In this document: positions 31,262-43,189 of the stretch, one piece after another
Layout of the letters: the number at the start of each line of letters is the position of its first letter
How positions within the stretch are numbered: the stretch's first letter is position 1
Translations under genes and position numbers: made by a program
Source of the DNA: Prolixibacteraceae bacterium
GTDB lineage: Bacteria; Bacteroidota; Bacteroidia; Bacteroidales; Prolixibacteraceae
Assembly (NCBI GenBank): GCA_028683385.1
Contig: JAQUIJ010000007.1
Coordinates: 186,001 to 250,000 of the forward strand
Reading direction: 5' to 3'
Length of the DNA stretch: 64,000 nucleotides
The notes under the pieces: generated by a model
Database searches by the model: none
The model's input: the letters and a program-made list of their open reading frames with translations, nothing else
What the model was told of the DNA's origin: nothing

Positions 31262-31969
31262 ATGGAACTTTACCAGGAACTTACAAAAGATATTCGGTTT
31301 GTGGAAGGCCTGAAATCCTGCATGAATTGTGGCGTTTGCACGGCCATTTGCCCTGCTGCCGAATTTTACGACTACGACCCCAGAATAATTGCCGGTATTG
31401 TACAATCAAAAGATGAAAAACGGATTGAAGAACTTCTGAAAAGCGAGACCATCTGGTATTGTGGCGAATGTATGTCGTGCAAAACCCGCTGTCCACGGGG
31501 CAATACTGTTGGACTAATCATCATGGCTCTGCGAAGCTTGTCACAGGAACTGGGCTACTTTGCTGAATCAGAAAAAGGTCGACAGCAATTGGCGATCAAG
31601 CGTGTAGTTGGCGAAAACATTATATCCAAAGGTTATTGCGTCCTTCCCGAAAACCTTATTCCTGAAATGCACCCCGAACAAGGACCTGTTGGGGAATGGA
31701 TTTATGACAATAAAGAAGAAGTTTACGAACGCGTTGGAGCTAATTACAATGGTAATGGTGAAGGTGCTTTACGTAAGATTCCACAGGAATCGATGGACGA
31801 AATTTACCGAATCTTCGAAATAACAGGTGGTATTGACCGTTTCGAAAAAATTGAATATTTCTCGAAACTTAAAGCTAAAAACATGGGATTTACCGAAAAT
31901 GATAACAATTATTCGGACTATGTAAACCACATCTTCACTACCAATAATGGCAAACACAACCGACAATAA
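31262..31969 (+). CDS. HdrC-like iron-sulfur protein (first of operon)
   Basis: A 235-residue soluble protein with two 4Fe-4S motifs: C20-x2-C23-x2-C26-x3-C30-P and C67-x2-C70-x2-C73-x3-C77-P. This is the arrangement of heterodisulfide-reductase subunit C and the related QmoC/DsrK electron-wire proteins. The 150-residue C-terminal extension is larger than in methanogen HdrC. It passes electrons between a flavin subunit (HdrA) and the CCG-domain subunit (HdrB). The next gene starts on the last base of its stop (TAATG), so the two are coupled. It opens a five-gene operon ending at 36355. Confidence 0.85.
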   Translation: MELYQELTKDIRFVEGLKSCMNCGVCTAICPAAEFYDYDPRIIAGIVQSKDEKRIEELLKSETIWYCGECMSCKTRCPRGNTVGLIIMALRSLSQELGYFAESEKGRQQLAIKRVVGENIISKGYCVLPENLIPEMHPEQGPVGEWIYDNKEEVYERVGANYNGNGEGALRKIPQESMDEIYRIFEITGGIDRFEKIEYFSKLKAKNMGFTENDNNYSDYVNHIFTTNNGKHNRQ

Positions 31970-33033
31970 TGAAACGAGAAGGTAAAATACAAGTTTGGCA
32001 GGATTATCAGAAGGATATAGCCGATGATCATTACTTCTATGTGCGAAGTTGCATACGTCAAAACTTCTTTCCTGGATCAGAACAAACGTTTCTAAAAATT
32101 CTGCGCAGGGAATTGAATAAAGATATTTATGAAAATCCACATCACACCAGTTGCTCTGGAATTGGTTACCATTCTGATATTGTTCCGTTCGACACCATTC
32201 AAACCATCGTTGCGCGGCAATTTGCACTCATGACCGAAGCTGGCTACCAGAACCTGGCAGTTTCGTGCATTACCTCATTTGGTATTTACAACGAAATCAT
32301 CGAAACATGGAAAGAGTTTCCTTCGGAACTGGAAAAAGTACGCTCACTCCTGAAAAAAGCTACCGGACGCGAATTTGAAATACCTCAAAATGTGGCTCAT
32401 GCAAGCGATATTATATACAAATTCAGGGATAAAATAGCTTCAATTGGGGAAAACCGGCTTGTCAATCAGAAGACAGGCAAACCGTTGAAAATTGTCGAAC
32501 ACATTGGCTGTCATTATTCAAAGATGTTTCCTTCGAAAGGAGTTGGCGGTGCAGAGTTTCCTCATGTACTGGTTGGAATGATCGAATCCTGGGGTGGCGA
32601 AGTGGTTGATTATCCTGAACGTCGTCATTGCTGCGGATTTGGGTTCAGGCAATATCTGGTGATGTCTAACCGTGGTTACTCTGTTTCCAATTCAAGGAAG
32701 AAATTTGAATCGATGGAGCCATACAAGCCCGATGCAATTCTTTGCAATTGCCCCGGTTGCCCAATGTTTCTCGATCGGTGGCAGTATGTTATTCAAGAAA
32801 TGGAAGGTAAAACATATGGCGAAAACGGACAGGGAATCCCGGTTCTAACCTACGAAGAAATGGCAGGTCTGGTACTTGGTTACGATCCGTGGAACATGGG
32901 AATGCAGATGCACCAAACCAATGTAGAGCCATTGTTGGATAAAATGGGAATTCATTACGACACTGATTTAAAATATGCCGGGAAAGACGGGAAACTGATC
33001 GGAAAACCAAAGATGGTGAGTTGCGGATGTTGA
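31969..33033 (+). CDS. HdrB-like CCG-domain protein
   Basis: A 354-residue protein related to heterodisulfide reductase subunit B. The second cysteine-rich (CCG) domain is intact: C181, C221-C222 in HCCGFGF and C259/C261-P-G-C264 in LCNCPGCP. The first domain is degenerate: C28, C62 (SCSG instead of CC) and C100 (CITS, not CxxC). In HdrB both domains bind noncubane 4Fe-4S clusters that reduce the disulfide. Here one catalytic cluster seems possible. The start overlaps the previous stop by one base and the C-terminus ends in CGC. Whether the substrate is a disulfide is unknown. Confidence 0.83.
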   Translation: MKREGKIQVWQDYQKDIADDHYFYVRSCIRQNFFPGSEQTFLKILRRELNKDIYENPHHTSCSGIGYHSDIVPFDTIQTIVARQFALMTEAGYQNLAVSCITSFGIYNEIIETWKEFPSELEKVRSLLKKATGREFEIPQNVAHASDIIYKFRDKIASIGENRLVNQKTGKPLKIVEHIGCHYSKMFPSKGVGGAEFPHVLVGMIESWGGEVVDYPERRHCCGFGFRQYLVMSNRGYSVSNSRKKFESMEPYKPDAILCNCPGCPMFLDRWQYVIQEMEGKTYGENGQGIPVLTYEEMAGLVLGYDPWNMGMQMHQTNVEPLLDKMGIHYDTDLKYAGKDGKLIGKPKMVSCGC

Positions 33034-33137
33034 AAATTTCAGGCAATTGGAGGATTTAAAACATAAAATAATGAACAAGTTCTAATCTGATCAATGCTAA
33101 CCTGGAACTTGAAATTTGGAACTATTAAACTTAGCTT

Positions 33138-34163
33138 GTGAAACACATTGTAGTTATAGGTGGCGGAATTGCCGGAATGGAAACAGCTTGCGCTCTGACT
33201 GATGCAGGACATTGGGTAACTGTAATCGAAAAAGAAGAACAGGTAGGCGGAAAGCTGAACAAATGGTCATACCTTTTCCCGGACTTTACTCCCGCTGATA
33301 AGATATTGGACGCACTTCTGGAAAAACACAGTGAAAAAGATTTCTCGATTTTAAGCCAGACAGAAGTCCTCTCTGTTAACCGCCAAAATAACAAATTCAA
33401 CATCGAAACTTCGGGTAAGCAAAAGTTAGAAGCTGATGCTGTAGTTGTCGCCACTGGATACGAACTTTTTGATGCCTCCCGAAAGGAAGAATACGGATAC
33501 AAAATATATGATCATGTAATCACATCGGCCGATCTGGAAAAATTATTATTACCTGACGGAGACCTTTCAGTCGCTGCGGGCCAAAATCCCAAACGGATTG
33601 CATTTGTACATTGTGTGGGATCGCGTGATGAAAAATCGGGCAATCATTATTGCTCCAAAGTATGCTGCATAACTGGCGTTAAACAAGCCATTGAACTTAA
33701 AAAACGATTGCCTGAAGCCGAGATTTATTGTTTCTACATGGATTTGCGCATGTACGGGAAAAACTTCGAAGAACTTTACCGTGAAGCACAGGAAAAGTAC
33801 GACATCCAGTTTATCCGTGGGCGGTTGTCTGAAGCGTCAGAAAAAATCGATAAAAGTTTGCTGATCAAATCGGAAGATACGCTTTCAGGCAGGCCACTCA
33901 AAATGAATGTTGATTTGCTGGTTTTGCTTGTGGGCATGGAAGCCGGAAAAGGAACCGCAAAAGCTGCGGCAGCCTGTAGTATCGGCTGCGAAGAATCAGG
34001 TTTTCTGAGAACTTCTGACCCATTTCTGATGTCGAATTTCTCAGAGCAAGAAGGAATATTTCTGGCAGGCAGTTGCACCGCACCCATGTCGGTCAATGAT
34101 ACCATTTTACATGCCAGGTCTGCGGCCCAAGAAGTAAATAACTGGCTAAAAAAGAATAACTAA
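33138..34163 (+). CDS. HdrA-like flavoprotein, minimal form
   Basis: A 341-residue protein starting at a GTG, 104 bases after the HdrB-like stop. It contains an FAD-binding Rossmann motif (VIGGGIAGMETACAL) and the diagnostic HdrA insert C159-V-G-S-R followed by Y-C172-S-x-x-C176-C177, which ligates the flavin-proximal 4Fe-4S cluster. The N-terminal Fe-S domain and C-terminal ferredoxin domains of full-length HdrA (about 650 residues) are missing. A second NAD-like or FAD segment ends at LAGSCTAPMSVNDTI. It is translationally coupled to the next gene (TAATG at 34161-34165). It may accept electrons from NADH, ferredoxin or another dehydrogenase. Confidence 0.85.
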   Translation: MKHIVVIGGGIAGMETACALTDAGHWVTVIEKEEQVGGKLNKWSYLFPDFTPADKILDALLEKHSEKDFSILSQTEVLSVNRQNNKFNIETSGKQKLEADAVVVATGYELFDASRKEEYGYKIYDHVITSADLEKLLLPDGDLSVAAGQNPKRIAFVHCVGSRDEKSGNHYCSKVCCITGVKQAIELKKRLPEAEIYCFYMDLRMYGKNFEELYREAQEKYDIQFIRGRLSEASEKIDKSLLIKSEDTLSGRPLKMNVDLLVLLVGMEAGKGTAKAAAACSIGCEESGFLRTSDPFLMSNFSEQEGIFLAGSCTAPMSVNDTILHARSAAQEVNNWLKKNN

Positions 34164-34507
34164 TGAAAGATTTTGGCTTTTCAGTGATCAAACAGCGAAC
34201 CATCGACTACGATCAGTTTGACGGCCGTCTTTTGAATGAGGTTTTAGAAATGGAACCCTCGTTTAAGGTATGTCTATCGTGCGGAGGATGCACTGCCACT
34301 TGTAGCGCTGCTGATTTGGTCAGTTTCAATGTACGGCGAATGAACCTATTGCTTCGTCGTGGAGAAACTGTTGAACTCGAAACTGAAATTCAAAAATGCA
34401 TGCTCTGTGGCAAATGCATGTTGGTCTGCCCTCGTGGAATCAACCTCCGAAATGTAATCATGCTCATCAAAAAGAGCATACATAAATATAAACCTGTCAA
34501 TTTGTAG
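34163..34507 (+). CDS. Second HdrC-like ferredoxin-type protein (short)
   Basis: A 114-residue protein with two 4Fe-4S motifs, C37-x2-C40-x2-C43-x3-C47 (CLSCGGCTATCS) and C79-x2-C82-x2-C85-x3-C89-P. It resembles a trimmed HdrC, without the extended C-terminus of the first copy. It is coupled to the HdrA-like gene by a one-base overlap and sits 6 bases before the membrane subunit. Having two HdrC-like proteins in one operon suggests two electron branches, one to HdrB and one to the membrane HdrDE-like subunit. Confidence 0.85.
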   Translation: MKDFGFSVIKQRTIDYDQFDGRLLNEVLEMEPSFKVCLSCGGCTATCSAADLVSFNVRRMNLLLRRGETVELETEIQKCMLCGKCMLVCPRGINLRNVIMLIKKSIHKYKPVNL

Positions 34508-34513
34508 ATTCAT

Positions 34514-36355
34514 ATGAAATTTCCTCCATCTTTCATATTACCATTTACAATCGGGCTTTTGTTTATTTCCTGCTTCCTGGTCATTATTGTAGGCATTTGG
34601 ATTTCAGAACTTTCGAAAATCGATAAAAGCCGGATTGTCCATAATATTTTCACTCGAAAAAGTTTGCTAGCAATTCGCGAAACATTTTCAGAATCACTAC
34701 TTCACCGAAAAATATTCAGGAAAAATCCGGTTTTGGGTTACATGCACATGAGCCTGGCATTTGGTTGGTTCCTGCTAATTGTTGTTGGTCATATCGAAGC
34801 CTACATTCATTATCAAAGCTTCAGTGTTCCTGCATATAAAGCAATTTTCATGCGCTATTTTATAACTCAGCAATCCATTACACTTTCAGGAAAAATACTG
34901 GCAGCAAGTATGGATTTATTGCTCTTATTTGTGCTTTCAGGTGTCGTGTTAGCCTACTACAAACGGATGAATAGTCGGATGTTTGGAATGAAGAAAACCA
35001 CACAGCTTAAAACTGGTGACCGTATTGCTTTAACTGCCCTTTGGCTCATTTTTCCCCTTCGTTTTCTTGCTGAAAGTGTTTCTGCTGGCGTTCATCACAA
35101 CGGAAGCATCATAAGTCAACCAACCGGGCATTTGCTTTCTTCATTTTTACCAATCCAATCGGTGGAAATGCCGTTATGGTGGGCTTATTCAGGAGCATTG
35201 GGTTTATTTTTCTTCGCTCTGCCTGTTTCTCGTTATATGCACATCCCCGTTGAGGTGGTCATGATTTTTTTGCGAAATTACGGGATAAAGGTTCAAAAGC
35301 GAATCGATGGCTACTCCAGAATCCAGATATATTCATGTTCGCGTTGCGGCATTTGCCTTGACAGTTGTCAAATGACCCATGCTGCGATAAAAGATACACA
35401 ATCGGTATATGCTTTGAAGCACATCAGAAATAGAAAAATTACCGATGAAAAACTATTCAATTGCATGCTTTGTGGAAGATGTCAACCCGATTGTCCTGTT
35501 GGACTAGAATTGAATAGCTTACGAATGACTCAGCGTATTGAGTCAACAAAAGAATATAACTCGTCCTACGAATACCTGAAGAACGGTAAAGTAAATGTCA
35601 GTCCCCAAACTGAAGTTATATATTTTGCGGGGTGTATGACCCATCTAACCCCAGCCATCATTAAATCGATGAAGGAAATTTTCGCTGTGGCTGATGTAAA
35701 ATACTGGTTTATGGATGAGGACAAAACGGCTTGCTGTGGCCGTCCATTGATGCAGATTGGACAATATAATGCAGCCCAAAAATTGATTGATCACAACCGC
35801 GAACAAATACTCGCTTCAGGAGTCAAAAAACTGGTAGTCTCCTGCCCTATTTGTTACAAAGTATTTAAAGAAGATTATGCATTACCTGGCATAACCGTTC
35901 AGCATCACTCCGAATATTTGCTTAATTTAATAACTGACAGGCGTCTGCCGATAAATAAAATGCCTCTTCGGATTGTTTACCATGATCCATGTGAACTTGG
36001 TCGTGGAAGCGGTATATACCTTCAGCCAAGATTATTACTGGACGAATATGTTGAATTAATTCCGATACAAAATGAAAAAGCATCTGCCTACTGTTGTGGT
36101 GGAAGTTTAGCCAACATCAAAATTAAGATGAATGAACGCACCCAAATTCGGGATAAGGCTTTGGAAGAATACTGCAATTATGAGCCAGATATCCTAGCAA
36201 CTGCCTGTCCGTTATGCAAAAAAACATTCGCCAAAAGTCGTATCTTGCCTGTTCACGATATCGCGGAAATCGTGTGCATGTCGATAACAAAAAGTGCAGA
36301 AATTTCGAGTAAAACGGACTCAGAAATTCTTTGTAAAAATGTAGCAATTAAATAG
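34514..36355 (+). CDS. HdrDE-like membrane subunit (NarI/HdrE-type helices fused to Fe-S and CCG domains)
   Basis: A 613-residue protein. About 245 N-terminal residues hold five hydrophobic helices with histidines (GYMHMSLAFGWF, GHIEAYIHY) that could bind b-type heme, like HdrE or nitrate reductase gamma. Then come two 4Fe-4S motifs (CSRCGICLDSC and CMLCGRCQPDC) near residues 275-331 and two complete CCG domains: GCMTHL, ACCGRP, SCPIC and PCELG, YCCGG, ACPLC. In methanogens HdrD and HdrE are separate proteins; here they are fused. A link to the menaquinone pool in the cytoplasmic membrane is likely. It is the last gene of the operon, with no obvious terminator in the 600 bases that follow. 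Confidence 0.85.
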   Translation: MKFPPSFILPFTIGLLFISCFLVIIVGIWISELSKIDKSRIVHNIFTRKSLLAIRETFSESLLHRKIFRKNPVLGYMHMSLAFGWFLLIVVGHIEAYIHYQSFSVPAYKAIFMRYFITQQSITLSGKILAASMDLLLLFVLSGVVLAYYKRMNSRMFGMKKTTQLKTGDRIALTALWLIFPLRFLAESVSAGVHHNGSIISQPTGHLLSSFLPIQSVEMPLWWAYSGALGLFFFALPVSRYMHIPVEVVMIFLRNYGIKVQKRIDGYSRIQIYSCSRCGICLDSCQMTHAAIKDTQSVYALKHIRNRKITDEKLFNCMLCGRCQPDCPVGLELNSLRMTQRIESTKEYNSSYEYLKNGKVNVSPQTEVIYFAGCMTHLTPAIIKSMKEIFAVADVKYWFMDEDKTACCGRPLMQIGQYNAAQKLIDHNREQILASGVKKLVVSCPICYKVFKEDYALPGITVQHHSEYLLNLITDRRLPINKMPLRIVYHDPCELGRGSGIYLQPRLLLDEYVELIPIQNEKASAYCCGGSLANIKIKMNERTQIRDKALEEYCNYEPDILATACPLCKKTFAKSRILPVHDIAEIVCMSITKSAEISSKTDSEILCKNVAIK

Positions 36356-36989: not shown

Positions 36990-37256
36990 ATGACAAAAAA
37001 AAGATTTGCAGAATCACAGATTTATCGTATTCTACAAGAAAATGAAAATGGAACTACAATTCCAGCGCTTATTAAAAAATATGGAATAAGCCAAGCTACA
37101 ATCTACAACTGGAGAGTAAAATATGGGGGTATGAATATATCCGAAATCCATAGATTAAATGAATTAGAAGAAGAGAACGACAGACTAAAAAGAATGTTTG
37201 CTGATTTAAGTCTTGAGAACCTTATACTAAAAGGTAAATTAGAAAAATCAAAGTAA
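36990..37256 (+). CDS. Stand-alone IS3 OrfA-like helix-turn-helix protein
   Basis: An 88-residue protein with an HTH (SQIYRILQENENGTTIPALI then KYGISQATIYNWRVKYGG) followed by a leucine-zipper-like helix (LNELEEENDRLKRMFADLSL). This matches OrfA of IS3/IS911-type elements, which binds the terminal repeats. No OrfB/DDE transposase, frameshift product or terminal repeats are visible in the flanks, so it is either a fossil or a DNA-binding protein kept on its own. The frame is intact and the codons look like those of the neighbours. It lies 302 bases before UpxY, which makes a regulatory role in the locus worth testing. Confidence 0.75.
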   Translation: MTKKRFAESQIYRILQENENGTTIPALIKKYGISQATIYNWRVKYGGMNISEIHRLNELEEENDRLKRMFADLSLENLILKGKLEKSK

Positions 37257-37558
37257 CCACTATTTTTAGAAATTAGAATTTTTAGAAAATTATTTCAATA
37301 ATAGTTTTATGTTATATCAAACAACAAGTATATTTTAAACAAGATTTATTTTACATAACAAAACTCATGCAACTCCATATTTATAAGGATAGATACTTAA
37401 AATTAAAATCAGGAGTGATGTCGGAAAACACGTATTGATTCCTAAGTTTTTCTAGCTTAATTTTATAGCATTAAAGAAATTCTAAAGGCACACACACTGT
37501 GCTAATTAGAATTAATTAGAAATTATTCTAATTAAAATAGAACCAATAATGTTATGAA
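37257..37558. promoter_or_regulatory. 302-bp region directly before the UpxY-like gene
   Basis: AT-rich non-coding stretch between the OrfA-like gene and UpxY, with repeated TTAGAAT/ATTCTAA words and the inverted repeat at 37512-37535. No gene or OrfB remnant is seen. Confidence 0.5.
37512..37535. promoter_or_regulatory. Perfect inverted repeat before UpxY (operator-like)
   Basis: TTAATTAGAA (37512-37521) and TTCTAATTAA (37526-37535) are exact reverse complements with a 4-base spacer, ending 23 bases before the UpxY start. The size and symmetry fit a dimeric DNA-binding protein. A further AATTAGAA half-site lies at 37504-37511. Confidence 0.45.
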
Positions 37559-38113
37559 ATGACGATTTTGGAAAAACAAAAATATCAATGGTATGCAATA
37601 TATACTAGAGCAAACGGAGAAAAGAAACTTTTTGACAATTTGCAGGTAAAAAACATCGAATGTTATTTACCAACAAGGAGGGTGTTAAAAACTTGGAGCG
37701 ACCGAAAAAAATGGGTTGAAGAACCATTGTTTAAGTGCTACATTTTCGTAAAAGTCAGTTACAAAGAGTTCTTTAATGTTCTAAACACCGCCGGAGCTAT
37801 TTGTTATATAAGTTTTGGTGGACGAGCGCAACCCATCCCTGAATATCAAATTAACAGCGTTAGAAACTTTCTTTGCCAATGTGATCAAGAGATTTCCCTA
37901 ACTTATGATCATATTCAAAAGGGTGCTTCTGTAGAGGTATTAAGAGGATCATTAAAAGGTGTAAAAGGTGAAGTTGTCAATATTCATGGACAAACGAGAC
38001 TTTTGATTCGAATTGACTCACTAAATTGTAGCCTTTATGTTAACATTTCCAGAGATGATGTAAAATTACTTGAAGACAATTACACACAAAAAAAACTCAG
38101 TTATGATTGTTAA
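37559..38113 (+). CDS. UpxY-type NusG-like transcription antiterminator
   Basis: A 184-residue NusG paralogue. The NGN domain begins QWYAIYTRANGEKKLFDNL and includes PTRRVLKTWSDRKKWVEEPL. A KOW domain follows (GASVEVLRGSLKGVKGEVV). In Bacteroides fragilis, UpxY proteins bind the leader of their own capsule operon and let RNA polymerase read the whole locus. Being first in the locus, this gene likely performs that role here for the 26 kb downstream. It is preceded by an inverted repeat and a long AT-rich leader. Housekeeping NusG is excluded by genomic context, as no secE or rplK neighbours are present. Confidence 0.87.
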   Translation: MTILEKQKYQWYAIYTRANGEKKLFDNLQVKNIECYLPTRRVLKTWSDRKKWVEEPLFKCYIFVKVSYKEFFNVLNTAGAICYISFGGRAQPIPEYQINSVRNFLCQCDQEISLTYDHIQKGASVEVLRGSLKGVKGEVVNIHGQTRLLIRIDSLNCSLYVNISRDDVKLLEDNYTQKKLSYDC

Positions 38114-38298
38114 TTCATAACCAACAAAATGAAAATTAATATTTTAGCATTTAATATTAATTTGAGTTATCTTCTCGTCAAAATTTGCGAAACTCTCTGA
38201 TCTAGCTTTTTATTTTGACATTTAAAGAGTTGATAGAATAGCCAATAAATTCAATTGCACAATCTTTTTCTTTCATTTTTACATAACAACAAAATATA

Positions 38299-39699
38299 AT
38301 GCTTAAGGAAAGAGAACCAGTTCTTGAAAAATTAAATGTAGTTTTTCAGGTAATTTTGACCATTTTATGTTTTGATGGTGCAAAATGGTTGACACATGAG
38401 TTTTTTGTACCTGTACAAAGTGACCTAACACAATATAAAACGTTACTCTTCATTATTGTTCCGCTTTGGTTATTAATCCTTAACCAGTCAAATTTAGGCC
38501 GAATTGGCCGTTTGAAAATGTATTCAGTCTTATTTATTGAATACTTAACCTCGATAATTATTGGAAATGTTTTACTTTATGTCGCCATTGTTTTTCTAGA
38601 TCTCAATGAAGTATCCAGATTAGTATTAGGCATTTTTGCAATATTAAATTTAATAGTATTATATTCTTATAAGTTCATTTTATCAGCAACAATGAAATAC
38701 CTTCGGAGAGAGGGGTTGAATAGCAGATTAATTTTGATTATTGCGGATGAAGATTCAAGTTATTTTATTGACCGGTTGGTGGAAACTAAAGATTGGGGAT
38801 ATCGAATATGGGCAATTATGACTGATGATGAAGTTATTAAATCTAAATATGGCAATGAATTCCACATTATACCGTGCGCAAAGGATCTCTCTGAAGTAAT
38901 TGATAATAAGTCGATTGACGAGGTGTTCTACTGCAAAAGCTCATTAGAACAAAATGAAATTCAGAAGTATATATATTCATGTGCAGAAGTTGGAGTTGTT
39001 TTTCGAATGCAATCGTTATTACTAAACTACATAAAGATGCAATCTACGCTCTCTTTTCTAAATCAAATGCCATTTTTAACCTTTAGAAATACACCAGATA
39101 ATTATCTGGCACTAAAATTTAAAGTAATGCTCGATTATATAATCTCCATTTCTGTTCTCATCATTTTTTCACCAATTATGTTAATTATAGCATTTTTGAT
39201 TAAACTTGATGGCGGGCCAGTCTTTTTTATGCAAAAAAGGATGGGCTTAAATGGGAGACAATTTTTTTGTTACAAATTTAGAACAATGGTTGTTAATGCG
39301 GAAAGTCTAAAGGAATCACTTCAAGCCCAAAATGAGCAGGAGGGTCCTGTTTTCAAGATAAAGCACGACCCGAGAGTAACTAGAATTGGTCAGTTTTTAC
39401 GTAAAACCTCATTGGATGAGTTACCTCAGTTTATAAACGTTTTGAAAGGTGAAATGGCAGTTGTTGGTCCGAGACCACCAATTCCATCTGAAGTAAAACA
39501 ATATATACGATGGCAAAATAGAAGATTAAGTATGAAGCCTGGAATAACTTGTATCTGGCAGGTATCCGGAAGAAACAATATTCCTTTTGACCAATGGATG
39601 AAAATGGATATGCAGTACATCGACACATGGTCATTAAAATTAGATTTAATTATCCTTTTAAAGACTATAAAGGTCGTGTTAACAGGTGATGGCCAATAA
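38299..39699 (+). CDS. Polyprenyl-phosphate sugar-1-phosphate transferase (WcaJ/WbaP-like)
   Basis: A 466-residue polyprenyl glycosylphosphotransferase. Four transmembrane helices lie in the first 130 residues, then a soluble CoA-binding-like region, then a re-entrant helix (IISISVLIIFSPIMLIIAF) and the catalytic C-terminal domain. The latter shows FFMQKRMGLNGRQFFCYKFRTM, LRKTSLDELPQFINVLKGE and MAVVGPRPP, which are family signatures. It starts the repeat unit by transferring a sugar-1-phosphate (glucose, galactose or an N-acetyl-hexosamine derivative) to undecaprenyl phosphate in the inner membrane. The donor cannot be fixed by eye. Confidence 0.93.
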   Translation: MLKEREPVLEKLNVVFQVILTILCFDGAKWLTHEFFVPVQSDLTQYKTLLFIIVPLWLLILNQSNLGRIGRLKMYSVLFIEYLTSIIIGNVLLYVAIVFLDLNEVSRLVLGIFAILNLIVLYSYKFILSATMKYLRREGLNSRLILIIADEDSSYFIDRLVETKDWGYRIWAIMTDDEVIKSKYGNEFHIIPCAKDLSEVIDNKSIDEVFYCKSSLEQNEIQKYIYSCAEVGVVFRMQSLLLNYIKMQSTLSFLNQMPFLTFRNTPDNYLALKFKVMLDYIISISVLIIFSPIMLIIAFLIKLDGGPVFFMQKRMGLNGRQFFCYKFRTMVVNAESLKESLQAQNEQEGPVFKIKHDPRVTRIGQFLRKTSLDELPQFINVLKGEMAVVGPRPPIPSEVKQYIRWQNRRLSMKPGITCIWQVSGRNNIPFDQWMKMDMQYIDTWSLKLDLIILLKTIKVVLTGDGQ

Positions 39700-39809
39700 T
39701 TAAAATGATAATATTGTATTCAGAAAGTCAAACGCAACTATTTTCAGGATTTATTGAATATTTTAGCTATATCAAATAGCCTTAAAAAAAACATACAAAT
39801 ACTTTTCAA

Positions 39810-40622
39810 ATGAATTTAAATCAATCCAAATTAAGTGTTCAAAATGGTATAACACTCATTATAATCATTTCAATTTCGACATTATTTTCTTGCCGTAGTA
39901 GCAAGGATCTAATTTTTTTAAAAGATGTAACCAATAATGAAATTAATCGTGGCTTGCCTGCCGAGTATATACTGAAAACAGGTGATATATTATATATCAG
40001 TATAAAATCTATGAACCCTGAAGTTAACCTTTTGTACAATCCTGAATCAAACATGGAAAACAGCACAGGGCAAGGTTATCAGAAGTATACAACACCAAGT
40101 GGAGCTTACCTTTATGGATTTGAAATTGATCCGGAAGAAAATATTAAACTACCGATGTTGGGCAAAATCAATGTATCAGGGATCCCAATTTCACAAATTG
40201 AATCTGTTGTACAAAAGAAAGCAGATGAATTTCTCAAAGATGCTATTGTTAAGGTGAAACTTTTGAATTTTAAGTTTACGGTTTCCGGTGAGGTTCGTAG
40301 GCCTGGAGATTATTATAATTACAATAATTCAATCAATGTTTTGGAAGCTTTAGCCATGGCAAACGGAAATACAGATTATGCCACGATAAAAAAAGTTATG
40401 GTGGTGCGACCTGTGCCAGAAGGCAGAAAAACATACATGCTTGATTTGAGCTCTAAAAGTGCTTATCTCTCAGAAGCCTTTTATCTCCAGCCAAACGATT
40501 TTATTATTGTACAACCAGACAAATACAAAAACTTTCAACTAAATAGCCAAGCATACTCTTTAGTTTTATCTTCACTGTCTGTACTTATAGCTGTACTTGG
40601 ATTTGTAATTCCTAAATTATAA
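39810..40622 (+). CDS. wza: Polysaccharide export lipoprotein (Wza/OPX family)
   Basis: A 270-residue outer-membrane export protein with a lipoprotein signal (STLFSC, cysteine at about residue 28). The Poly_export domain starts at YILKTGDILYISIKSMNP. An SLBB-like part follows (FTVSGEVRRPGDYYN and NSINVLEALAMANG). A C-terminal hydrophobic helix (SLVLSSLSVLIAVLGFVI) is seen instead of the amphipathic helix of E. coli Wza, as is common in Bacteroidota. It should form the outer-membrane pore with the Wzc-like protein below. Confidence 0.9.
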   Translation: MNLNQSKLSVQNGITLIIIISISTLFSCRSSKDLIFLKDVTNNEINRGLPAEYILKTGDILYISIKSMNPEVNLLYNPESNMENSTGQGYQKYTTPSGAYLYGFEIDPEENIKLPMLGKINVSGIPISQIESVVQKKADEFLKDAIVKVKLLNFKFTVSGEVRRPGDYYNYNNSINVLEALAMANGNTDYATIKKVMVVRPVPEGRKTYMLDLSSKSAYLSEAFYLQPNDFIIVQPDKYKNFQLNSQAYSLVLSSLSVLIAVLGFVIPKL

Positions 40623-40659
40623 TTTAATTCCAACATACAGAAAGAGAGTTAACTTAAAG

Positions 40660-40703
40660 GAAAAAGAAAGAAAAAAGAAAGAAAAAAGAAAGAAAAAGTA
40701 AAT
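40660..40703 (+). repeat. GAAAAAAGAAA microsatellite upstream of wzc
   Basis: About four units of an 11-base purine repeat. The first is one base short and the last has one mismatch. It lies 78 bases before the wzc start in the wza-wzc spacer. Confidence 0.7.
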
Positions 40704-40780
40704 TTAAAGGCACATATCAACTATCTTCGACTATATAGTTGAAATACATATCAATTAATTACTTTATAAATAATCTTAAG

Positions 40781-43189
40781 ATGAACGATCACCCAATAAA
40801 TTTCACAGAAAAAGAAACTCAAGTAGAAGAGTTTGATATAAAAAAAATCATTTATCTAATACGTCGTCAATGGTATTGGCTAGCCTTTTTTGGTTTCTTG
40901 GGATTACTATTAGCATATGGATTTAACAAAATTACTAAACCAAGATACCAAATTAGCACATCTATATTAGTTCCCGAAAAGTCTGATGCATTGAACATGA
41001 AAAGTATTTTTCAGGGGATTGTTGATGTACCAAAAAATAATATTTATAACCAGGTTGAAATTATAAAATCCTATTATAATATAAATCAAGCCCTTTTAAA
41101 CCTGAACTGGAGAACAAGTTGGTACTCAAAAAATTTGTTTATATGGAGAGATATATATAAACAGGAACCTTTTGATGTACAAGAGACCCCAAATTTCATA
41201 AATACAACAGGTATTGCTGTATACATAAAACCTACTACAGATAATAATTACATAATATCTTATAATGCAAAAATTGAAAAGGATGGACAAATTACTGACT
41301 TAAAATTTGAAGGTTCTGGAACTTTTGGTCAGCCATTTGCAAACAAATATTTCAACTTTACATTACTAAAAAAAATCAATAATTTCGAGACTATATCTGG
41401 TCAATATTATTTCGTATTTAATGATATAAACAATCTGACTCGAACTTATCAGAATAAACTCAATGCAACAATAACAGATAAGAAGGGAGATATTATTGTT
41501 TGCTCTATTGAGAGTGATCAGCCTTATAGAGGATGTGATTTTTTAAATGAGGTGATCAAAGTCTACATTGAAGGAAAAATGAATTTTCAAAGTGAAGCAC
41601 AACGTCGCTCTCTTGATTTTATTAATACTCAATTGGCAGGCATTTCCGATTCACTCAATACTGCAGGAGCAAAGTTTACAAACTTCCGATCACAAAATAA
41701 CATTATTGATTTAGGAGCTGAAGGGACTCTCGTTATGAATAGTTTAAAAGAAATTGAATCGGAACGTGCTCAAAGTAAAATGCAACTGGACTATTTTCAA
41801 AATTTACTTAAATACTTGAAAGATAATAGTGATCTCAAGGAAATCGTTTCTCCTTCAGTAGTTGGCATACAGGATGCTTCGCTTAATGCGCTTGTGCTTA
41901 AACTGGGCGAGTTATACAACCGTCGGCAGGTGCTTTCTTTTAGCGCCAAAGAAAACAATCCCACTTTGATCATGATTGATAAAGAATTGAATCAGGTTCG
42001 CAATCAGTTAAACGAGAACCTACGCAATCTGATAGACAATGCCACTGCAAATATCAACAGTCAGAAGGAAAGGCAAGATAAAATCAATTTTCAGATGACT
42101 AAATTGCCTATGAAGGAACAAAAAATGGTTAGTATTCAACGTCAATTTAACCTCACAAATGATATTTACACATTTTTGCTTCAGAAGCGGGCAGAAACAA
42201 ACATTTCGTTGGCATCAACGATGCCTGATGTTCAGGTTATTGATACAGCAAGACCCGATTTAGCCAGTCCAATGGGTTATAGCCCCAGAATTTTACTTAG
42301 TCTGGGATTTATTTTAGGTACTGGCCTTCCTGTTGCGTTTCTCTTGCTCTTTAATTTCTTCGATGACCACATCCGAACACAACAGGATTTAGAAAAAAAT
42401 ACTCGAATACCAATTTTAGGCAATATCATGCATAGTCAAACAAAATCCGATCTAGTTGTTCATGAAAATCCAAAATCTAATATTGCCGAATCTTTTAGAG
42501 CATTACGCACTAGTTTACAGTTTATGCTATCAGGTCCTTTGGGAAAGGTTTTAAGTATTCATTCTACTAATCCAGGAGAAGGCAAATCTTTCTTTTCAGT
42601 CAATCTGGCGACTATTCTTGCAATGAATAATAAAAAAGTATTGATTATTGGTGCCGATCTACGAAAACCAAGGCTTCATAAAGTATTTAATCTTTCAAAT
42701 GAAAACGGTCTAAGTAATTACCTTATTGGAATTGATTCAATCGATCAGATTATTTTCCCTACATCGGTTGAAAATCTTTCATTATTAACCTCAGGGCCAA
42801 TACCACCAAATCCTGCTGAAATATTGGGAAAACCGGAGATGAAAAACTTGATTGATTCATTTCGTTCCCAATTCGATTATATAATCATTGATAATGCACC
42901 TACGGCCATGGTAACTGATGGTCATATTGTAAGCCTTTTGTCCGACCTCAATATATTTATTCTTCGATATGGATATTCACGTAAACATGAGATCGAAATG
43001 ATTAATCAGTATGCTAATCAGAAAACCATTGAAAATATTGCTCTTGTTGTAAATGACATCAAACCAAATTCGTTCGGGAATACCTATTACAAGTATTATC
43101 AGTACGAAGCCGACCAAAGGAGTTATTATTCCGAGGAAGAAGATGAGAAAAAGTTTCTCAGGAAAAAGAAAGTTAAAGCAACATCTTAG
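40781..43189 (+). CDS. wzc: Wzc-type co-polymerase with BY-kinase domain
   Basis: An 802-residue protein; the ATG at 40781 is chosen because the Wzz domain starts shortly after (FDIKKIIYLIRRQWYW) and the upstream frame has no known motif. Two transmembrane helices, at about residues 30-48 and 500-525, enclose a large coiled-coil periplasmic part with the GNVR-type region. The cytosolic BY-kinase has Walker A (GEGKS, about residue 597), an A' motif written LIIGADLRKP, Walker B (IIIDNAP) and a C-terminal tyrosine cluster (TYYKYYQYE, RSYY). It controls chain length and export with Wza. The G in place of the first Asp of A' is discussed below. Confidence 0.92.
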   Translation: MNDHPINFTEKETQVEEFDIKKIIYLIRRQWYWLAFFGFLGLLLAYGFNKITKPRYQISTSILVPEKSDALNMKSIFQGIVDVPKNNIYNQVEIIKSYYNINQALLNLNWRTSWYSKNLFIWRDIYKQEPFDVQETPNFINTTGIAVYIKPTTDNNYIISYNAKIEKDGQITDLKFEGSGTFGQPFANKYFNFTLLKKINNFETISGQYYFVFNDINNLTRTYQNKLNATITDKKGDIIVCSIESDQPYRGCDFLNEVIKVYIEGKMNFQSEAQRRSLDFINTQLAGISDSLNTAGAKFTNFRSQNNIIDLGAEGTLVMNSLKEIESERAQSKMQLDYFQNLLKYLKDNSDLKEIVSPSVVGIQDASLNALVLKLGELYNRRQVLSFSAKENNPTLIMIDKELNQVRNQLNENLRNLIDNATANINSQKERQDKINFQMTKLPMKEQKMVSIQRQFNLTNDIYTFLLQKRAETNISLASTMPDVQVIDTARPDLASPMGYSPRILLSLGFILGTGLPVAFLLLFNFFDDHIRTQQDLEKNTRIPILGNIMHSQTKSDLVVHENPKSNIAESFRALRTSLQFMLSGPLGKVLSIHSTNPGEGKSFFSVNLATILAMNNKKVLIIGADLRKPRLHKVFNLSNENGLSNYLIGIDSIDQIIFPTSVENLSLLTSGPIPPNPAEILGKPEMKNLIDSFRSQFDYIIIDNAPTAMVTDGHIVSLLSDLNIFILRYGYSRKHEIEMINQYANQKTIENIALVVNDIKPNSFGNTYYKYYQYEADQRSYYSEEEDEKKFLRKKKVKATS

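Follow-up and report, generated by a model that had tools for sequence, protein, structure and literature searches.

A conserved Hdr-like operon of Bacteroidales that may encode a menaquinone-linked thiol/disulfide oxidoreductase with an sHdr-type core and an HdrED-type membrane module

Which kind of redox complex is encoded by the five genes at positions 31262-36355 of the stretch of 64,000 nucleotides analysed here (referred to as the window), and with which partners does it exchange electrons? All five open reading frames lie on the plus strand and encode, in the order HdrC1-HdrB-HdrA-HdrC2-HdrDE, proteins resembling subunits of heterodisulfide reductases (Hdr); the coordinates, strand and gene order given in the original prediction are thus confirmed. 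According to the best reading of our data, the operon represents a new variant in which a core of the sHdr type is combined with a membrane module of the HdrED type. We hold with moderate confidence that its products form one complex, attached to the membrane, that acts as a menaquinone-linked thiol/disulfide (or persulfide) oxidoreductase, with substrate, direction, assembly and cofactor loading being inferred. That the complex is connected with the menaquinone pool or with a disulfide, the latter left unnamed, had already been proposed and stays the best reading. No description or characterisation of the five-gene unit was found in the open-access literature searched.

A scan of named genomes yielded 80 loci, nearly all of them from metagenome-assembled genomes (MAGs) of uncultured Bacteroidales or Bacteroidetes. 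The comparison of gene neighbourhoods proposed with the original prediction revealed the five genes in the same order in all 53 named loci that extend far enough around HdrB, 40 of them according to the gene caller and 13 after tblastn had placed a gene missed by the caller. The apparent absence of C2 or C1 in these 13 loci is an artefact of the gene caller, as tblastn located the gene in the expected place. Therefore, the arrangement is not a result of chance. The flanking genes are otherwise variable, and most neighbours are kept only among close relatives. Among 101 relatives, HdrB was detected in 38 genomes, the short HdrA in 36 and HdrDE in 37, and all three occur together in 36 of the 38 positive genomes, with score thresholds that were chosen after the hits had been seen; the other two are fragmented assemblies, namely MAGs in 650 and 1070 contigs. 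The conservation of the five-gene unit amid variable neighbours and the co-occurrence of HdrA, HdrB and HdrDE both argue for one complex.

When the order Bacteroidales was sampled evenly, the short HdrA was present in 65 of 198 genomes, representing 57 of 151 genera. An even sample of the phylum gave HdrB matches in the source genome itself and in two genomes whose cluster is a different one, of the sHdr type. The nearest named records are 86-93% identical in HdrB and derive nearly all from Bacteroidetes or Prolixibacteraceae MAGs. Judged by these records, the source genome belongs to the Bacteroidota, as had been presumed. Judging from the record titles, the host habitats are largely anoxic, and the order includes many uncultured bacteria of gut, rumen, sediments, lakes and digesters.

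In the AlphaFold model (pLDDT 90) of the membrane subunit HdrDE, a membrane domain of five helices is combined with a dicluster domain and two CCG domains. The two [4Fe-4S] motifs span C275-C327, and both CCG motifs are complete (C374/C407/C408/C444/C447 and C493/C527/C528/C565/C568), with all ten cysteines kept in 61 loci. In the same number of loci, H78 and H243, the predicted heme-b ligands, are invariant; they are also present in EMO-like proteins from two sHdr clusters of a distant Bacteroidota family (L129 and L130). Over 552 residues the fold corresponds to that of EtfD from M. smegmatis (9ojn, Z 22.9), and parts of it match NarI (membrane part, Z about 9) and HdrB (CCG part, Z about 19). 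The heme b of EtfD is ligated by H78 and H241 and wires the clusters to menaquinone, a putative molecule of which is 4-5 angstrom away from it (PMC13083937). The whole-length fold and the shared positions of the heme ligands speak for a link of HdrDE to menaquinone, which is also supported by the presence of MenD in the genome.

HdrDE thus has the domains of an HdrDE-like quinone-linked disulfide reductase, namely a NarI-like membrane domain, a dicluster Fer4 domain and two complete CCG motifs. With the EtfD/EMO proteins of mycobacteria and syntrophs it shares the fold of the whole chain, the heme-b histidines, the two [4Fe-4S] motifs and the two CCG domains. However, EtfD has lost the bridging cysteines, carries a linear [3Fe-4S] cluster and non-catalytic noncubane clusters, and has ETF as its partner; neither this loss nor an ETF partner is found in HdrDE and its locus. 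C447 and C568 correspond to Cys81/Cys234 of Hdr, the catalytic bridging residues that are absent from EtfD. The retention of all ten CCG cysteines suggests that HdrDE is built like a fused HdrE-HdrD fit for disulfide chemistry and is not merely a wire. Since it has two complete CCG sites, each with a bridging, opening cysteine, HdrDE appears to be a credible disulfide-reactive site, and HdrB may offer a second, single-cluster site. In comparison to HdrDE of Methanosarcina, considered here from the literature only, the combination of a b-type membrane domain with an HdrD that has Fer4 and two CCG domains is the same, whereas the version described here is bacterial, forms one chain in E-D order and is encoded together with C1-B-A-C2; nothing points to coenzyme M or coenzyme B.

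In HdrB, the C-terminal CCG motif is complete (C181, C221, C222, C261, C264), and the N-terminal one is reduced to C28, C62 and C100; both features hold for all 80 sequences. Pfam recognises a single CCG domain in HdrB because the N-terminal one is degenerate. The AlphaFold model (pLDDT 82), which was built from genome loci only, matches HdrB of solved Hdr complexes with Z 26-28 over 276-290 residues. It follows from the two motifs that HdrB has room for a single noncubane cluster of the catalytic type rather than for two. The sHdrB1 proteins of Acidithiobacillus and of the clusters L129 and L130 have the same degenerate N-terminal site but lack C261. In the tree, HdrB groups with the protein of a cyanobacterial plasmid operon, adjoins the sHdr core and stands apart from HdrABC and Qmo; it is placed beside the sHdr clade rather than inside it (support 86-100), with only three true sHdr sequences in the tree.

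HdrA consists of an FAD domain and one [4Fe-4S] site only, whose cysteines C159, C172, C176 and C177 are invariant across 77 loci. The ferredoxin domains and the N-terminal domain of methanogen HdrA are absent, and the protein matches the 349-aa short HdrA structure 6tjr, which we take to be sHdrA of Hyphomicrobium, from end to end (E 1e-56). In the maximum-likelihood tree, the Bacteroidales sequences and one sequence from a Picosynechococcus plasmid form a group that is split from all others with a support of 100. This group adjoins sHdrA and is separate from long HdrA, QmoA and QmoB (98). Here too, it stands beside the sHdr clade rather than inside it (98-100), in a tree with three true sHdr sequences and a small outgroup set of plasmid matches, PDB sequences and other Bacteroidota.

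The operon was originally described as Hdr-like, and this class assignment holds in general, but its subunits are not orthologs of HdrABC. In the search with hidden Markov models, likewise proposed earlier, the NCBIfam matches were strong, but their scores remained far below the curated equivalog cut-offs (HdrA 266 of 1100 bits, HdrB 139 of 450, HdrC 85 of 350), and HdrA and HdrB adjoin the sHdr core. HdrABC orthology is ruled out by these cut-offs, by the trees and by the lone complete CCG site of HdrB. QmoABC likewise combines HdrA-type flavoproteins with a membrane quinone module, but its HdrA-type subunits are two in number and longer, and HdrC is fused to HdrE in it; its identity with the operon is ruled out by the HdrA tree and the domain layout. 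One of 11 genomes with Qmo-like clusters possesses the operon, and mutual exclusion of the two is not significant (P 0.09). As had been stated from the sequence, no hydrogenase/MvhD, APS reductase (AprAB) or DsrAB gene is found in the neighbourhood. The original prediction did not include the relationship to sHdr or the spread of the operon across the order, nor did it recognise that HdrB has lost its N-terminal CCG site and that HdrDE retains two complete ones.

If the operon encodes a thiol/disulfide oxidoreductase, electrons would pass from HdrB (one noncubane [4Fe-4S] site) via HdrC1 (two [4Fe-4S]) to HdrA (FAD and one [4Fe-4S]) and from there via HdrC2 (two [4Fe-4S]) to HdrDE (two [4Fe-4S] and two noncubane sites), whose clusters would deliver them through heme b (H78/H243) to menaquinone. 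Thiol/disulfide or persulfide chemistry would take place at the CCG sites, with a substrate that may be of low molecular mass or bound to a protein. The likelier net direction would be oxidation of a dithiol or persulfide and reduction of menaquinone, since the textbook potentials of common thiol couples are lower than that of menaquinone.

Several points weigh against this reading. In none of the 80 loci does a neighbouring gene name the substrate. Paralogs that do have sulfur genes as neighbours (see below) are not the operon itself. The assembly of the complex, its heme and its cluster content are predicted only, and the direction is taken from generic potentials alone. A mechanism with two clusters in HdrB, which has one complete noncubane site, is not expected. 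Moreover, the reading assigns no role to C1-B-A if HdrDE can carry out the chemistry by itself.

The kinship to sHdr raises the possibility of a third sHdr type, in which protein-bound sulfane sulfur would be oxidised to sulfite and menaquinone, in place of NAD+ or EtfAB, would receive the electrons. The published clusters are of type I (C1B1A-H-C2B2) or type II (C1B1A-H-B3 with etfAB) (PMC11582611), and sHdr clusters are tied to lipoate-binding proteins (PMC6067878). The order C1-B1-A followed by C2, the short HdrA of approximately 350 aa, the degenerate N-terminal CCG site of B1 and the neighbouring positions in the HdrA and HdrB trees are shared with type I and are in favour of such a relationship. 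However, A and C2 follow each other directly in the operon, an LbpA-like gene is not found nearby, and HdrB retains C261, which the tested sHdrB1 proteins lack. The operon is not a type I cluster, since the H gene is missing from it in the window and the soluble B2 is replaced by the membrane subunit HdrDE in all loci with room for it. Like type II, it has the C1B1A core and, clustered with it, a membrane protein of the EMO/EtfD type. It is not of this type either, as no Etf homolog occurs in the 80 flanking regions, a fused B3 is absent and C2 is separate; in addition, both CCG sites of its membrane subunit are complete, whereas the EMO-like protein of type II clusters has lost the first one. 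This contrast is a direct one, since the type II-like clusters L129 and L130, with C1-B1-A, B3-like, EtfAB, EMO-like, LbpA-like and DsrE-like genes, come from the same phylum.

The closest relative found outside the phylum is the operon of the Picosynechococcus PCC 7003 plasmid (L122:8053-13793). Its C1, B1 and A are 51, 41 and 45% identical and cluster with the Bacteroidales sequences, but it has a soluble B2 in place of HdrDE, so that the order is HdrC1-B1-A-C2-B2. It ends in an SQR-like gene, which would fit a third sHdr type. On the other hand, homologs of LbpA, DsrE-like proteins, TusA, Etf and rhodanese were not found in the flanks of up to 10 kb of the 80 loci (blastp, E 1e-4), so that the link to LbpA, a general trait of sHdr, is not seen at any of them. 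The GCV_H matches of the source genome, one GcvH-like protein of 136 aa and two membrane-linked fusions, all lie away from the operon. Considering also the largely anoxic habitats of the hosts, we regard a third sHdr type as unlikely.

A flavin-based bifurcating or confurcating complex, in which electrons are divided at the FAD of HdrA, one branch leading to menaquinone (C2-DE) and the other to C1-B or a soluble ferredoxin, is in our opinion not a likely explanation either. The single FAD is flanked by two separate HdrC-type wires. Furthermore, K409 and E356 of methanogen HdrA have been proposed to separate bifurcating from non-bifurcating HdrA (PMC12054007), and their equivalents K182 and E134 are invariant in 77 of 77 sequences, while 6tjr carries N at the position of the lysine. 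The pair is unspecific and was rejected as a proof of bifurcation, since QmoA-like proteins retain both residues; its presence permits bifurcation but does not prove it. Moreover, HdrA lacks ferredoxin domains that could carry the low-potential branch, and a MvhD/FlxD-type input gene is missing. A more specific version, in which a third short-HdrA family, its Lys/Glu pair of the bifurcation type being intact, bifurcates or confurcates at its FAD between menaquinone, reached by the fused HdrED-type subunit, and a thiol/persulfide site, appears quite unlikely; if true, it would represent a quinone-coupled bifurcating Hdr for energy conservation across the Bacteroidales. It is improbable that HdrDE is just an EMO/EtfD-like wire that does no disulfide chemistry and supplies menaquinone with electrons of ETF or another flavoprotein, C1-B-A being its dedicated flavoprotein donor. 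Although HdrDE can be aligned over nearly its full length with EtfD and with the EMO-like protein encoded in type II sHdr clusters, those proteins have lost noncubane ligands that HdrDE retains completely, and Etf genes are absent from the neighbourhoods.

With the short HdrA in about a third of the sampled Bacteroidales genomes, these anaerobes seem to possess a membrane redox enzyme that is as yet uncharacterised. The operon combines an sHdr core and an HdrED/EtfD quinone module, which have been known apart, and therefore bears on the evolutionary assembly of Hdr complexes. Such genomes could be wrongly counted as sulfur oxidisers in surveys whose only marker is C1B1A.

The domain make-up stated for the operon (an FAD/Fe-S subunit, two Fe-S wires, a CCG subunit and a membrane subunit with Fe-S and two CCG domains) agrees with the Pfam results (Table 1). 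HdrC1 has two [4Fe-4S] motifs (C20 C23 C26 C30 and C67 C70 C73 C77) and a C-terminal extension with C126, and all nine cysteines are invariant across 75 loci. HdrC2 also has two [4Fe-4S] motifs, with eight cysteines invariant across 62 loci. A coupling of the genes by one or a few bases had been claimed; tight coupling holds for three of the four junctions (overlaps of 1 base each at C1/B and A/C2, a gap of 6 bases between C2 and DE), but B and A are separated by 104 bases.

Table 1. Genes of the Hdr-like operon and their positions in the window
Gene	Position	Strand	Properties
HdrC1	31262-31969	+	235 aa; Pfam Fer4_8; ferredoxin-type subunit
HdrB (B1 type)	31969-33033	+	354 aa; CCG protein (Pfam)
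Short HdrA	33138-34163	+	341 aa, GTG start; FAD protein (Pfam)
HdrC2	34163-34507	+	114 aa, ferredoxin-like; Fer4 (Pfam)
HdrDE-type membrane subunit (HdrE-HdrD fusion)	34514-36355	+	613 aa; dicluster Fer4 and two CCG domains (Pfam)

The source genome possesses a second HdrC1-HdrB pair on contig 34 (L011:150-9789), 61 and 65% identical and without A, C2 and DE. Genes for a CoA-disulfide reductase-rhodanese, a C_GCAxxG_C_C protein, a thioredoxin-like protein, two MinD-ferredoxin ATPases and CGGC, MBL and NifX-like proteins belong to this cluster, and genome G418 has a cluster resembling it (L131). In genome G480 (L132:78-13816), a paralogous pair lies near TusA-like, DsrE-like and YeeE/YedE-like genes, several rhodanese-domain genes and a QmoA-like gene, all named by sequence resemblance and not by family search; this is likely a sulfur-trafficking locus. 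The pairs beside sulfur genes tie the HdrC1-HdrB family to sulfur and thiol chemistry. Together with the sHdr kinship they hint at a sulfur or thiol substrate, although the hints from the paralogs concern the family and not the five-gene operon.

No functional partner was detected beyond the genus level in the conserved neighbourhoods, save occasional regulators of the Crp/Fnr or NarL type upstream. A Crp/Fnr-type regulator gene, often divergent, lies near the operon in about nine loci (among them L051, L056, L068, L076, L081, L083 and L097), in most of them upstream of HdrC1. Two-component genes of the NarL type precede the operon in L134, L135 and L137.

Elsewhere in the source genome, contig 28 (L128:6356-14301) encodes a HybA-like Fe-S protein and an NrfD-like protein between two proteins in which a GcvH domain is joined to membrane or binding-protein parts; a sensor kinase and an NtrC-type regulator come next. 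In relatives without the operon (L142:7438-13907, L145 and L146), QmoA-, QmoB- and QmoC-like genes are preceded by DsrE-like and TusA-like genes. On an Acidithiobacillus plasmid (L124:787-4490), an sHdrB1-like gene stands by itself, with a GcvH-type gene and hemerythrin-domain genes close by; other parts of an Hdr operon were not seen in the stretch read. Downstream of the operon, positions 36990-43189 of the window encode a short HTH_Tnp_1 protein, a NusG-like protein and exopolysaccharide-type functions, which are probably unrelated to it.

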